A stretch of DNA of 39,568 nt from a virus: positions 1 to 39,568 of the IMG/VR virus record IMGVR_UViG_3300050821_006249. The stretch is one strand, 5' to 3'. This document shows, one piece after another, positions 6,019 through 25,192 of the stretch. Every line of letters begins with the position of its first letter. Positions within the stretch are counted from its first letter, which is position 1. A program made the position numbers and the translations under genes. The notes below the pieces were generated by a model. It saw nothing but the letters and a program-made list of their open reading frames with translations. It did no database searches and was not told the origin of the DNA.

Positions 6019-7593
6019 TCAAGTCTTCCCTTTATATGCCTTCTGTCTCAATCTATCGATTTTATGCGAGTGAGACATCATTCTTCTGGCAGTATCATCA
6101 TATTCCTTTTGACGACTTTTCAAGATTGCACTATTTGGCAATGCAAAAGTAAGCGCTAACGCGTCTCCTTCATCAGGACTACGCACACTACGCTTTTTCA
6201 TCTCTTGCTTAGATTCCATTTTGATGCGATCATTATAATCTGTACGATATTTAATACCGCATAAATCAGAGTGCAATGAATCATTATCAGGTATTGTGCA
6301 AGGAAAGTCTAGTAACCACTCTTTCATCAAGCCCCACATTTCAGCGCGCTTATTAAAATAAACCTTTTGATTAAGTGGTGTATTGCTACTATTGACTGCT
6401 ACTACAACATCCTTATGACCTAACTCTACCAATCTATCGTAGATACCGGCGCCTAAACCTCCCACATCGATACACACTTTATCTGGCTGCTCATCAACAA
6501 TAATACGATGGATGATACCTACAACCTCCATTGTGTTTTTTTTCTTATAACTTTGTAGGTTATAAGCAACACGGGTCTTTCTACGTATAATTGATGTTCT
6601 ATCGTCTCCATAACGTGCAGGGTCTACTCCAATGATTAAAGAACCATACGGCTCAGCAATATTACATTTCCTTGCTATCATGACAGTATTAGTAGATAAG
6701 AAATTGTCATCACCGCTTAATTGGAATGCTTCTGTAGGATTGCAAGGATATTCTTGCATGAAAGCTTTTAAACCATCTTGACCTTGAGTAGACAAAGCAA
6801 CGATCTTTGATCTACGCCAAGCTAATTGCTCCGGATATAGGTTATACAATTCGGATAATGATTTTTCCTCTTCGGTTATCTTAAAATCTTCTGGTAGGTC
6901 TTTTTGATATTCTTCTTGCCAATACCATGGCAAGAATATAGGTATAAAATCGGATGCACCAGATTCCGCTAATTGATATTGTTCATGGAAGTAATTTCCT
7001 ACCCCATTCGCTGTCGATTCAATAAATATCTCTGTCCCTCTTTCATCAGGAACCGCTTGCAATATTCCTTTTGCATGACCGGCAGCATTTGGCCAATATC
7101 CTACTTCTGAACCATGCAATAATTGAATAGTAGCAGAACGACCTACGTCTTTATTACCAGCCGTCCCTAATTTATAACCAGAGTCCAATCCTGCAAAGCT
7201 AAGTTCTTTTGCATTACTAGCCTCAATTTGTGGTTGAACAGCAACAGGACAGTATTGATGATAACGTTGTGCCATCTCAAACAGGTTATTTGTAGCATCA
7301 ATGTGATGAGTGAGAATAAAAGCCTGCATACCGCGTTGATGGGTCACAAGCCAATAAAAGCGGCCTTCAATGTAAGTAGAGCATCCTTGCTGGCGTCCTT
7401 TAACAATGATTACCCTTACTTTGCCAGTTTCACGCTTTTGCTGTTCGACTTTATCATTTAAATATCTCTGTATCCTATTAAATACAAGATTACTTATCTC
7501 ACCTGATTTTTTACGCACCTTCAAACACTTCGAAGCATAAAAATCAAAGTTATCTCGTAACCTTATGCGAATCCTTCGTTCTACTGCATCCAT
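6019..7593 (-). CDS. Terminase large subunit (ATPase-nuclease)
   Basis: 524 residues. The packaging motor protein: an N-terminal ATPase and C-terminal RNase H-like nuclease that cuts the concatemer. Visible motifs are a Walker A variant VKGRQQGCST (residues 64-73), the acidic SEVGYW motif (162-167), the coupling motif ESTANG (192-197), and nuclease acidic centres GVDPARYGDD (322-331), CIDVGG (374-379) and DEGDAL (474-479). The length is usual for the family. The ribosome site is weak (GAGAG). The portal follows it. Confidence 0.93.
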   Translation of the reverse strand: MDAVERRIRIRLRDNFDFYASKCLKVRKKSGEISNLVFNRIQRYLNDKVEQQKRETGKVRVIIVKGRQQGCSTYIEGRFYWLVTHQRGMQAFILTHHIDATNNLFEMAQRYHQYCPVAVQPQIEASNAKELSFAGLDSGYKLGTAGNKDVGRSATIQLLHGSEVGYWPNAAGHAKGILQAVPDERGTEIFIESTANGVGNYFHEQYQLAESGASDFIPIFLPWYWQEEYQKDLPEDFKITEEEKSLSELYNLYPEQLAWRRSKIVALSTQGQDGLKAFMQEYPCNPTEAFQLSGDDNFLSTNTVMIARKCNIAEPYGSLIIGVDPARYGDDRTSIIRRKTRVAYNLQSYKKKNTMEVVGIIHRIIVDEQPDKVCIDVGGLGAGIYDRLVELGHKDVVVAVNSSNTPLNQKVYFNKRAEMWGLMKEWLLDFPCTIPDNDSLHSDLCGIKYRTDYNDRIKMESKQEMKKRSVRSPDEGDALALTFALPNSAILKSRQKEYDDTARRMMSHSHKIDRLRQKAYKGKT

Positions 7594-20095: not shown

Positions 20096-20227
20096 ATGGG
20101 AGATAATAAGGATATTTACCCTTTTCAATGTAATGATAGATGCGAATTTTGCGGTGAAATACATTCGGCTAATGTAGAATGCCGAGATTCAGAAGGTGAG
20201 CCGATAGATGAGATGTTTTTTGATTGA
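20096..20227 (+). CDS. Small zinc-binding protein
   Basis: 43 residues, found by reading the gap. MGDNKDIYPFQCNDRCEFCG, then EIHSANVEC: four Cys plus a His could bind one zinc. AAGGAG lies 6-7 bases before the ATG. Last protein gene before the RNA locus. Confidence 0.58.
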   Translation: MGDNKDIYPFQCNDRCEFCGEIHSANVECRDSEGEPIDEMFFD

Positions 20228-20239
20228 TCGATTAATTAT

Positions 20240-20386
20240 GGAGCTATCGGCGTGGACAGTGACACGCGGGATGACTCTCAGCCGTATCGTGGGCTTCGAG
20301 TTAATCGTTGACTGCAAGTGAATCAACATATTATGTCAATGAAACAGGTAGCAGATACGAGTCAGTGCAATTCTGGCATAGCTCCA
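20240..20386 (+). ncRNA. tRNA-like folded element A
   Basis: 147 bases closed by a perfect 8-bp stem GGAGCTAT/ATAGCTCC followed by A, like an acceptor stem and discriminator. Next is hairpin GCGTG/CACGC with loop GACAGTGA (20250-20267), where a D arm would be. Just before the closing strand is hairpin GTCAG/CTGGC with loop TGCAATT (20361-20377), where a T arm would be. The middle 90 bases contain GTTGA/TCAAC and CGTATC/GATACG pairs but no anticodon arm that I can place. The loops recur in element C. Confidence 0.6.
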
Positions 20387-20457
20387 AAGAGTGCAGGGTT
20401 TAATTATACCCGTATTACCAGCCGCCGGTATGGTGCATAAAACCGGCAAAGAATCAT

Positions 20458-20530
20458 TGGCACGTAGCAAAGCGGTAATGCAGCACCCTGTTAAGGTGCT
20501 TATGCGTAGGTTCGAGTCCTACCGTGCCAG
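20458..20530 (+). tRNA. tRNA-Asn(GTT)
   Basis: Perfect cloverleaf of 73 bases: acceptor TGGCACG/CGTGCCA with discriminator G, anticodon stem GCACC/GGTGC with loop CTGTTAA (anticodon GTT), T arm GTAGG/CCTAC with loop TTCGAGT. CCA is not encoded. A hairpin GCCGGT/ACCGGC lies just upstream (20424-20447). It would serve the AAT/AAC codons, frequent in this AT-rich genome. Confidence 0.95.
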
Positions 20531-20542
20531 AATAAATTGAAA

Positions 20543-20625
20543 GGATGAGTGGGTGAGGGGTTAAAACCGGCAGACTGTAAATCTGTTCTCCGCGGAGTAC
20601 GCTAGTTCGAATCTAGCCTCATCCA
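20543..20625 (+). tRNA. tRNA-Tyr(GTA)
   Basis: Class II tRNA of 83 bases with acceptor GGATGAG/CTCATCC and discriminator A, anticodon stem CAGA/TCTG with loop CTGTAAA (anticodon GTA), a long variable arm around CTCCGCGGAG, and T arm GCTAG/CTAGC with loop TTCGAAT. CCA is not encoded. It follows tRNA-Asn after 12 bases, the shared spacer AATAAATTGAAA suggesting one transcript. Confidence 0.95.
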
Positions 20626-20744
20626 GAATAAATTATGGTAATAAGTGCGGTTCAATTCCGTATTAGCTACGTTCGAATCGTAGGCTCTGGGCATCGTCTT
20701 AGGGGTTTTAGCGAAATGGTATCCTGCTTATTACCAAGAATTAT

Positions 20745-20907
20745 GGTAACTGTAGCTCGAAAAGATAGGTGTCATAGTAGTCGCCTAATCGAAGAGTCTC
20801 TCATATTGCAGAAATGCGAGGTCTTGTGGCAAGGTTAGATAATGACCCCTTATCAGCCATACAAGGCTAACGAGAGAGGTTGGAGGTGCAATTCCTCTCA
20901 GTTACCG
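20745..20907 (+). ncRNA. tRNA-like folded element B
   Basis: 163 bases closed by 8-bp stem GGTAACTG/CAGTTACC. The closing strand is preceded by a hairpin with a TGCAATT loop (GAGG/CCTC, extendable to GAGAGG/CCTCTC by an alternative pairing). Inner helices include AGGTG/CGCCT (20767-20786) and CTTGT-GGC with GCC-AT-ACAAG. It lacks the GACAGTGA loop of elements A and C. Confidence 0.5.
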
Positions 20908-21049
20908 CGGAATATAGTTTATATAAACGTTTTGAGGATACGTATAATCCTCCCTGACGCCCTGACTATGAAAGTCCCGTAGAATTACGGAAACACCGCT
21001 TGATAGTTTTATGGCGCCGAAGAATATCAGGAAAAATATAAGCTATATA

Positions 21050-21155
21050 CCGATAGCAGCGCTGACAGTGAAGCCCGCAATATCGCGATATGTGGTCGTT
21101 GGATTGCCTGTCATAGGAAGAACAACGATAGTGAGTGCAATTCTCACCTATTGGT
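21050..21155 (+). ncRNA. tRNA-like folded element C
   Basis: 106 bases fold completely into a multibranch: closing stem CCGATAG/CTATTGG (one G-T), hairpin GCT/AGC with loop GACAGTGA (21061-21074), hairpin CCGC-ATAT/ATAT-GTGG (21075-21095), stem TCGTTG/CAACGA (21096-21128) with inner CC/GG, and hairpin GTGAG/CTCAC with loop TGCAATT (21131-21147). This is the outline of a class II tRNA, but the arm in the anticodon position has a CGCG tip and no 7-base loop. Confidence 0.6.
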
Positions 21156-21324
21156 AATTATTAACTTGAGTCATAGCAAGTATAGCCTATGAATAGCAGC
21201 GTAGCTAAGTTTCATCCTAGAAGATGATAGCGTGAATGAGGTGCGGTTTGACCATAAGCAAGACACCAAGGAATATGCATCAATGCAATGGCAGGCGAAA
21301 GCCGAGAATTTTGAGGTGATAAAA

Positions 21325-21432
21325 ATGTGCGAAGAAGATAATTATTTTTGGTATGGAATTATTTTTATAATAACGTTTTTATTATTTACAATAGCTGTAC
21401 TAGCAGTTTTATCTGCATTGTTTTTAAATTAA
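21325..21432 (+). CDS. Small membrane protein
   Basis: 35 residues: MCEEDNYFWYGIIFIITFLL and a continuing hydrophobic end, one span. GAGGTG lies 6-7 bases before the ATG at 21325. A longer frame from 21232 runs back into the structured RNA and has no ribosome site. Confidence 0.55.
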   Translation: MCEEDNYFWYGIIFIITFLLFTIAVLAVLSALFLN

Positions 21433-23684: not shown

Positions 23685-23966
23685 ATGAAAGATGAATTTA
23701 AAGAGTTAACAAAAAAATTAAATAGCAAGCTTGTAGAAACCACTGTTAATTTTATTAAAGAAAATGTTAAAGAAGATAAAGAAATATACTTAAATGATTT
23801 TCTAAATTTAATATTAAGCTCTCATATTTCCTCTATATATAATAATTTATTGCATTTAACAGAAATGTTTGAAGCTCCACAAGAACCTATTGATATTTTA
23901 ATGAATAAAATACTTTTCTCAATAGAAGATTTTGATCTTATTGAATATAAAGGAGATAAACATTAA
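23685..23966 (+). CDS. Small helical paralogue 4
   Basis: 93 residues (MKDEFKELTKKLNSKLVETT onward). Core YLNDFLNLILSSHISSIYNN and acidic end follow the same plan as paralogues 1-3, but it is the most divergent. AGAGGAAA precedes the ATG. Its stop overlaps the RtcB start as TAATG. Confidence 0.58.
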   Translation: MKDEFKELTKKLNSKLVETTVNFIKENVKEDKEIYLNDFLNLILSSHISSIYNNLLHLTEMFEAPQEPIDILMNKILFSIEDFDLIEYKGDKH

Positions 23967-25192
23967 TGCGCGTATTTGAAGGAAAAAATGTCCCAATAAA
24001 AGCTTGGATAGATTATGTTGATATTGAAGATCAAGCTCTTCAACAACTCGTTAATTTATCAAGTATGCCATTTATATATAAGCATGTTGCAGCGATGCCA
24101 GATGTTCACTGGGGAATGGGTGCTACTATCGGAAGCGTTATAGCTACTGAAAAAGCTATTATTCCTGCTGCGGTTGGTGTTGATATTGGTTGCGGCATGA
24201 TGGCTGTTAAAACACCTTTAAATGCTAATGATTTACCAGATAATCTTTTTGATATTCGATCAAAAATAGAAGCTGCCGTTCCTCACGGTAGAACTAATCA
24301 AGGTGGTGATGGTGATAGAGGTGCTTGGCATAATATACATCCATTAGGTGAATTAAGTTTTCTATTGATGAAAGAAGAATACGAATCAATAATAGAAAAA
24401 TATCCTTTATTAAAACCAAAGAAAAACCCTGCTCATCATTTAGGTACGCTTGGGACTGGTAATCATTTTATAGAAATATGTTTAGATCAAAATCAAGATG
24501 TATGGGTAATGCTTCATAGTGGAAGTAGAGGAATTGGTAATAAAATAGGAGTTTTTTTCATTAGTAAGGCAAAAGAAGAAATGCAAAAATACTATATAGA
24601 TAAACATATATCCGATATAGACTTATCTTATCTAGTAGAACATACAGAAATTTTTGATGATTATATAAAAGCTGTTAATTGGGCGCAAAAGTTTGCATTC
24701 GAAAATAGAGTTATAATGATGAGTAATATTATTGGGATTTTATCAGAAAGTTTTCCTGATAAAATTTTTGAATATCATACATTTGAAACAGCAATAAATT
24801 GTCATCACAACTATGTTGAGAAAGAAAGACACTTCGGTAAAAATGTATGGCTTACCCGTAAAGGTGCTGTTAGAGCCAGAAAAGATGATTTAGGTATTAT
24901 ACCTGGTTCCATGGGTGCAAAAAGCTTTATAGTTAGAGGTAAAGGAAATTTAGAAAGTTTTCATTCATGTTCTCATGGAGCGGGTCGTTCAATGGGTCGT
25001 AATGAAGCTAAAAAGCGTTTTACATTAGAAGATCATATAAAAGCCACAGAAGGCGTTGAATGCAGAAAAGATCAAGATGTTATTGATGAAACACCAATGG
25101 CTTATAAAGATATCGATAATGTAATGAAATCTCAAGAGGATTTAGTTGATATTATCTATACATTAAAGCAAGTTGTTTGTATAAAGGGGTAA
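23966..25192 (+). CDS. rtcB: RNA-splicing ligase RtcB
   Basis: 408 residues, exactly the length of E. coli RtcB. Joins 2',3'-cyclic phosphate (or 3'-phosphate) and 5'-OH RNA ends using GTP and Mn2+. Visible motifs: PDVHWGMG (45-52), VDIGCGM with metal-binding Cys76 (72-78), GTGNHFIE with His167, LHSGSRGIG with His184, CHHNYVE (279-285), IIPGSMG, and CSHGAGRSMGR whose His337 matches the guanylylated His of E. coli RtcB. No intein or gap. A plausible job is re-joining tRNAs cut by host anticodon nucleases. Confidence 0.93.
   Translation: MRVFEGKNVPIKAWIDYVDIEDQALQQLVNLSSMPFIYKHVAAMPDVHWGMGATIGSVIATEKAIIPAAVGVDIGCGMMAVKTPLNANDLPDNLFDIRSKIEAAVPHGRTNQGGDGDRGAWHNIHPLGELSFLLMKEEYESIIEKYPLLKPKKNPAHHLGTLGTGNHFIEICLDQNQDVWVMLHSGSRGIGNKIGVFFISKAKEEMQKYYIDKHISDIDLSYLVEHTEIFDDYIKAVNWAQKFAFENRVIMMSNIIGILSESFPDKIFEYHTFETAINCHHNYVEKERHFGKNVWLTRKGAVRARKDDLGIIPGSMGAKSFIVRGKGNLESFHSCSHGAGRSMGRNEAKKRFTLEDHIKATEGVECRKDQDVIDETPMAYKDIDNVMKSQEDLVDIIYTLKQVVCIKG

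Follow-up and report, generated by a model that had tools for sequence, protein, structure and literature searches.

Constant tRNA-like ends around a hypervariable insert define a family of non-decoding RNAs in uncultured phages

Two elements, W1 and W3, in a viral DNA record of 39,568 bp are members of an RNA family that Rfam does not contain; this record was analyzed over its whole length and is called the window below. The family is well supported, with 91 distinct sequences in 86 loci, nearly all from IMG/VR phage contigs, and many uncultured bacterial viruses encode this previously uncatalogued RNA. Its members are non-decoding tRNA mimics, in which constant tRNA-like ends and a probable elbow surround a variable stretch that replaces the decoding arm. 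The favored reading of their function, to which a probability of roughly 0.45 is assigned, is that the tRNA-like handle matures and protects a fast-evolving RNA cargo that acts on the host.

The window includes genes for a P22-like portal, a terminase, exonuclease VIII, and RtcB. On its plus strand, W1, tRNA-Asn, tRNA-Tyr, a possible fourth unit (W4), W2, and W3 follow one another in an array, bounded upstream by a 43-aa ORF that ends at 20227, just 5' of W1. The sequence-only reading had described three tRNA-like elements around two normal tRNAs. The two tRNAs were recognized by both ARAGORN and Rfam as canonical tRNA-Asn (GTT; 20457-20531) and tRNA-Tyr (GTA; 20543-20625), and they score 58-63 bits with the Rfam tRNA model. 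The RtcB RNA ligase gene (23966-25192, plus strand; PF01139, E 2.4e-128; phrog_1075, E 1.6e-144) is located about 3 kb downstream of the array. Its product is 72% identical to the RtcB of the phage contig L004, which also bears family elements; only these two of 24 contigs encode RtcB, and it is thus not a partner of the RNA family. The region 20230-21330 was scanned with a descriptor that requires a 5-bp stem with a T-type loop of 7 nt, directly adjacent to a 7-bp closing stem. Nine overlapping calls were obtained, nearly all at W1, W2, W3, and the real tRNAs, while 300 dinucleotide shuffles gave a mean of 0.007. The bare TGCAATT loop is not rare, as RRTGCAATTYY was found 3 times and 13 of 100 shuffles equaled that number. 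The significance of the elements comes from the hairpin together with the closing stem, and from their relatives, not from the TGCAATT motif alone. The locus consists of distinct units of tRNA size arranged in an array, and two of these are ordinary tRNAs.

The common plan proposed for the three elements was found in each of them, with the original boundaries right to within 1-2 nt: a closing stem of 8 bp and a 5-bp stem capped by the loop TGCAATT. The D-arm-like loop GACAGTGA, assigned to two of them, is seen in the outer two, W1 and W3. W1 (20240-20386, plus strand) is a full member, with an acceptor formed by GGAGCTAT (20240-20247) and ATAGCTCC (20378-20385), a linker CG (20248-20249), the D-arm GCGTG-GACAGTGA-CACGC (20250-20267; loop 20255-20262), an insert (20268-20360), the T-arm GTCAG-TGCAATT-CTGGC (20361-20377; loop 20366-20372), and a discriminator-like A at 20386. 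It is preceded by TTAT (20236-20239), which fits the family leader consensus and places the predicted RNase P cleavage after T-1. W3 (21049-21156, plus strand), also a full member, pairs ACCGATAG (21049-21056) with CTATTGGT (21148-21155). Its linker is CA, its D-arm (21059-21076; loop GACAGTGA at 21064-21071) contains one C-C mismatch, and its insert (21077-21130) holds the helix GTCGTTG/CAACGAT and ends in an A (21130) that precedes the T-stem. The T-arm GTGAG-TGCAATT-CTCAC (21131-21147) and an A at 21156 complete it.

W2 (20745-20907, plus strand) is divergent. Its acceptor, GGTAACTG (20745-20752) with CAGTTACC (20899-20906), and its T-arm GGAGG-TGCAATT-CCTCT (20882-20898) are evident from the sequence and the descriptor scan, and the GACAGTGA D-arm is missing. 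The family model sees only its T-arm, weakly (11.4 bits, E 0.26), and W2 is related to the family by plan only, that is, by acceptor and T-arm. Relative to shuffles, the fold z-scores are strongly negative for W1 (-3.46) and W2 (-3.49) and moderately so for W3 (-1.59). W4 (20637-20736, plus strand), not listed in the sequence-only reading, has a 9-bp closing stem of GGTAATAAG (20637-20645) and CTTATTACC (20727-20735) followed by A, a TTAT leader like that of W1, and an unexceptional fold (z -0.62). Its stem encloses two T-type hairpins (TTCAATT and TTCGAAT) and then a D-loop-like GAAATGGTAT; this order, with the T-arm ahead of the D-arm, resembles that of a circularly permuted tRNA. An ARAGORN call of tRNA-Leu(CAA) at 20623-20692 cuts across W4, has no Rfam support, and is probably spurious.

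Relatives were collected in several ways. Loci L002, L003, and L004 were reached via protein neighbors of the window, and several elements built in this way occur in L004. A DNA pattern joining both loops (GTGGACAGTGACAC ... TGCAATT) matched 21 IMG/VR loci and a second such pattern 23, while a D-arm-only pattern matched 77 and a D-stem-free pattern 47; these counts rest on loop-based patterns, and members with other loops are under-sampled. A stricter early pattern built on W3 gave zero matches. Exact scanning across species genomes of bacteria and archaea (84,980 in all) yielded just 2 matches, one of them on a contig with phage genes common to the window; the family is therefore essentially viral. 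Among INPHARED isolates, no member was found when W1-W3, the consensus 5' end, and two elements served as blastn queries. Two matches in named phages were discarded as chance, namely L188 from an Erwinia phage and one in Salmonella phage 7t3 that falls within a CDS. The elements stand alone in dozens of phage contigs, where each has a leader, a stem, and an end of its own, and many family phages carry second or third copies according to the covariance model described below. In L116 (minus strand, 6275-7260), three elements are adjacent and one is a truncated near-copy of another, an apparent duplication and decay inside one phage.

All three helices covary strongly. In 38 shells (the ends with the insert removed), 98.4% of cells are paired, a percentage inflated by the selection of the aligned elements for pairing. 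The double changes are not inflated in this way: 136 cells changed on both sides versus 32.3 in 500 shuffles, none of which reached 136, and sliding the partners yielded no more than 21. Since most patterns fix part of the D-stem, the test was repeated on 19 D-stem-varied sequences, where double changes were seen at all 8 pairs of the acceptor, all 5 of the D-stem, and 4 of the 5 in the T-stem. Covariation in related phages had been named as the check on the proposed stems, and these changes on both sides support them. Three further tests are free of the selection for pairing. A covariance model trained on 42 elements, with the window and L004 left out, recovers W1 (66.8 bits, E 3.1e-17) and W3 (58.2 bits, E 9.3e-15), and in 983 kb of DNA from 79 unrelated viral loci it has no match with an E value under 0.09. 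In the D-arm-only search, about 31 of 39 sites show a T-type arm abutting a matching acceptor, mostly with TGCAATT, and several of the remaining sites have a T-arm with an interrupted loop. Finally, the L003 phage, chosen by protein similarity only, bears a member at E 4e-18.

The family plan comprises an 8-bp acceptor, CG (77 of 91 elements), a 5-bp D-arm with an 8-nt loop, an insert of 29-270 nt, A (96% of elements), a 5-bp T-arm with a 7-nt loop, and the 3' strand of the acceptor. Since no nucleotide separates the T-arm from the acceptor, a continuous 13-bp stack of acceptor and T-stem is possible. The T-loop is TGCAATT in 78 elements, TGTAATT in 4, TGCGATT in 3, and other sequences in a few. 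Members in L156 (7284-7410), L157 (4748-4915), L168 (361-468), and L132 (2192-2287) show insertions of up to tens of nucleotides in the T-loop, between TG and AATT.

An anticodon arm with a 5-bp stem and a 7-nt loop follows the D-arm in 1 of 85 inserts, versus 0.6 in shuffles, and none of the 85 has such an arm with U33 and R37. The 85 distinct inserts share no common motif. In 55 of 84 inserts, versus 21.7 in shuffles, the place of a variable arm is taken by a helix that ends 1-3 nt 5' of the T-stem. Compensatory changes can be read directly from the insert sequences of L088 and L091 (CCTTG-GAAA-CAAGG versus GCATA-GAAA-TATGC), and helices are also kept by compensatory change in the insert pairs L109/L155, L115/L192, and L119/L172. 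As a class, the inserts fold hardly better than flanking DNA (mean fold z -0.57 versus -0.41, p 0.095), and part of the insert may therefore be a passive spacer. An H-type pseudoknot common to the inserts was not significant (p 0.09). An antisense-guide role was rejected, as the longest complementarity of inserts to their own locus was 9.56 versus 9.70 in shuffles.

The tRNA elbow involves a contact of G18 with pseudouridine 55 and the pair G19-C56. The corresponding positions of GACAGTGA and TGCAATT would yield A18-G55 and G19-C56; G55 cannot become pseudouridine. The D- and T-loops are highly conserved across the family. Among canonical tRNAs in the collected loci, U55 goes with a D-loop GG in 110 of 111, while five tRNA calls with G55, four of them clear tRNAs, have CAG in the D-arm region. 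A natural altered elbow of this kind, with a TGC T-loop and a CAG D-arm, is found in L043 (4895-8518) in ordinary phage tRNAs for Cys, Thr, Leu, and Val. Within the family, compensated variants are GACAACGA with TGTAATT (A19-U56) in L132 (1906-2031) and CACGGTGA with TTCGACT (G18-U55) in L107 (4364-4465). The sequence-only reading had suggested a possible elbow of tRNA type, with TGC where TTC is usual. The G55 tRNAs and the in-family variants support it, and the two loops likely form an elbow with A18-G55 replacing G18-U55. It is not proven, because each compensated variant is a single case, L171 is an exception in which the T-loop TTCAATT goes with GACAGTGA, and G19-U56 would result in the four members with U56.

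The ends of the elements resemble those of tRNA genes. Over 85 distinct elements, the leader shows T at -4 (59%), T at -3 (58%), A at -2 (64%), and T at -1 (66%), giving the consensus TTAT before G1. CCA is found one base after the stem (N-CCA) in 8 of 91 elements and directly after it in 4 of 91, against a background of about 1; most members lack an encoded CCA. Canonical tRNAs lie within 200 nt of 10 of the 91 elements, where 1.0 was expected. GTTTAT separates the successive units of arrays such as those of L115 and L181, which are composed of a family element, a tRNA, and additional CCA-ended units. The TTAT|G leader, the occasional CCA, and the nearby tRNAs suggest tRNA-style maturation, as judged from sequence. 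In L100 (4498-4904), a tRNA gene is interrupted by about 330 nt in an intron-like manner, and its terminal CCA lies a few bases 5' of a family element.

Other types of CCA-ended units were also observed. A second RNA with conserved ends consists of TTTAT|GGCCGACGATACT, a variable insert, and GGGAAAATAGGCC|NCCA, 50-112 nt in all. It is present in L002, L004, L088, L096, L108, L137, L181, L187, L192, and L199-L239, and often adjoins the main family. A scan with its 5' end only gave 48 loci. Of 41 distinct sites, 22 possess the strict 3' module including CCA, and in several others the module is present but for the final A. A third type, GGCTCTCGATG ... GATGTAGAGAGCC ACCA, occurs in L092 (7372-7481) and L098 (1032-1149; minus-strand coordinates) and in L101 (2761-2870). 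Its closing stem shows a compensatory change, GGCTTTC/GAAAGCC, in L098.

Constant ends and elbow around a changing but structured middle make a handle with cargo the simplest reading. Host RNase P would cut at TTAT|G, the 3' end would be trimmed, and CCA would be added where it is not already encoded, so that separate stable RNAs are released from a polycistronic phage transcript. In tRNA-Sec, an 8-bp acceptor weakens the binding to EF-Tu about 100-fold (PMC7609411). Family RNAs should therefore mature like tRNAs yet avoid translation, and the 8-bp acceptor and the missing anticodon arm would together keep them out of it. The tRNA-like shell would serve for maturation and stability, and the insert would be a fast-evolving cargo that probably binds a host factor in phage-host conflict. 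No recurring protein partner was found, as the neighbors within 6 kb cluster as general phage genes in at most 11 of 86 loci; the host factor is accordingly a guess.

A serious rival, although itself rather unlikely, is that the shell is the active part and works as a tRNA decoy. It would occupy host enzymes that recognize the tRNA elbow or acceptor, such as a defense anticodon nuclease or a processing or modifying enzyme; without an anticodon it could not be cut, and the insert would merely replace the anticodon arm. This agrees with the lack of that arm, with the constancy of the D- and T-arms, with the location beside phage tRNAs, and with the RtcB repair ligase encoded by the window and L004, and a decoy-like suggestion has been published for YrlA (PMC7790460). 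The inserts, however, have compensatory changes of their own and an enriched helix, neither of which a mere spacer would be expected to show; as mimicry, the unusual elbow and the 8-bp acceptor are poor, and RtcB is limited to 2 of 24 contigs. The tRNA-like ends, and CCA in some members, would also suit a charged or uncharged molecule entering the ribosome as tmRNA does. Such a role is improbable: the acceptor is freely variable at all 8 pairs, which leaves no common synthetase identity there, no Rfam tmRNA match was found in the window or 12 family loci, the 13-bp acceptor domain disfavors EF-Tu (PMC7609411), and the inserts have no common motif that could be a tag.

The remaining alternatives have very low probability. 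One is that the inserts are introns of interrupted tRNA genes, removed by cleavage and RtcB ligation, in favor of which is the tRNA-splicing ligase encoded 3 kb away; against this stand the presence of RtcB in only 2 of 24 contigs, the lack of an anticodon arm at the canonical place and of a conserved splice motif, and the 8-bp acceptors. Slimmer still is the chance that the elements are fragments of one large ornate RNA of the GOLLD/ROOL type across the kilobase, a home considered in the sequence-only reading. The location in a phage tRNA cluster and the long non-coding stretch speak for it. Against it, Rfam gave no match other than tRNA, the GOLLD model was silent in 12 family contigs as in its control genomes, and most contigs have single stand-alone elements. 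The same slim chance is given to a relative of the bacterial Y RNA YrlA working with a Ro60-like protein. YrlA mimics tRNA too and is encoded near rtcB in bacteria (PMC7790460), but no TROVE (Ro60-like) protein was detected in 24 contigs, with a control genome positive in this search, and the YrlA model (RF02553) gave two sub-threshold matches in 12 contigs and none at an element.

Beyond the handle-with-cargo reading of this one family, it is possible, if doubtful, that the tRNA-like shell is a general phage scaffold, whose host-processed ends present a hypervariable RNA that is renewed in an arms race with bacterial defense. If so, the several unrelated shell types of an array (the family, GGCCGACGATACT...GGGAAAATAGGCC-NCCA, and others) would constitute a new class of phage RNA armoury. 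With dozens of independent covarying examples with exact ends, the maturation and the question of shell versus insert become testable. The family also displays an altered elbow, A18-G55, with natural compensated variants. Because tRNA finders and Rfam miss the family, phage annotation overlooks it.

The search against known RNAs that had been proposed for GOLLD, ROOL, and all families was run, and gave tRNA only. This whole-library Rfam cmscan, which covers ROOL and tmRNA, included the window and 12 family loci, and permissive scans added sub-threshold matches only. At W1, W2, and W3, Rfam tRNA (RF00005) has no match above the gathering threshold; canonical tRNA has a 7-bp acceptor, while the family has 8 covarying acceptor pairs, and the T-stem is 5 bp in both. 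GOLLD (RF02032) gave no match in the window or in 12 family contigs, with control genomes silent as well. GOLLD and ROOL are phage RNAs of unresolved function near tRNA islands (PMC12286853); they are single large RNAs, many GOLLD being >800 nt, while the family units are about 80-320 nt. A new class was the other possibility raised in the sequence-only reading, and it is supported by the absence from Rfam and the strong covariation. No description of the family was found in the open-access literature, though one may exist elsewhere.

YrlA is a non-coding RNA with a tRNA-like domain, as are the family RNAs, and shows no sequence-structure match to them. Bacterial tRNA-Sec, with which allo-tRNAs and other non-canonical tRNAs are grouped as a near comparison, shares the 8-bp acceptor, the 5-bp T-stem, their sum of 13 bp, and a long variable-arm-like helix (PMC7609411). 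The family differs from it in having no anticodon arm (hence no UCA), a 5-bp D-stem with an 8-nt loop, an altered elbow, and a freely variable acceptor. The family also has a likeness to the TMERs of gammaherpesviruses, in which a viral tRNA-like part is the processing handle for another RNA. TMERs belong to a eukaryotic virus and carry their cargo downstream of the tRNA, not inside it, and no homology is implied.

The nearest kind are the species 1 and 2 RNAs of phage T4 (rnaC and rnaD), which share the niche, a similar size, and a T-arm or CCA end, without homology. It has long been recognized that phage tRNA clusters include stable RNAs of this kind, which are not tRNAs and are still unexplained. 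The T4 RNAs are non-decoding, 119-139 nt in length, and annotated beside tRNA genes, as in the family. They are largely conserved over hundreds of T4-like phages, while the family has a hypervariable middle; they also have a canonical T-loop TTCGAAT, no GACAGTGA D-arm, and a weak closing stem, and the family model has no match in the T4 region with rnaC and rnaD. rnaD ends in GCACCA. The 3' end of rnaC (L195, 905-1047) is composed of a hairpin, A, and the T-arm CCGGG-TTCGAAT-CCCGG, in the same order as in the family, and comparison of rnaC with the family plan could help to explain the species 1 RNA.
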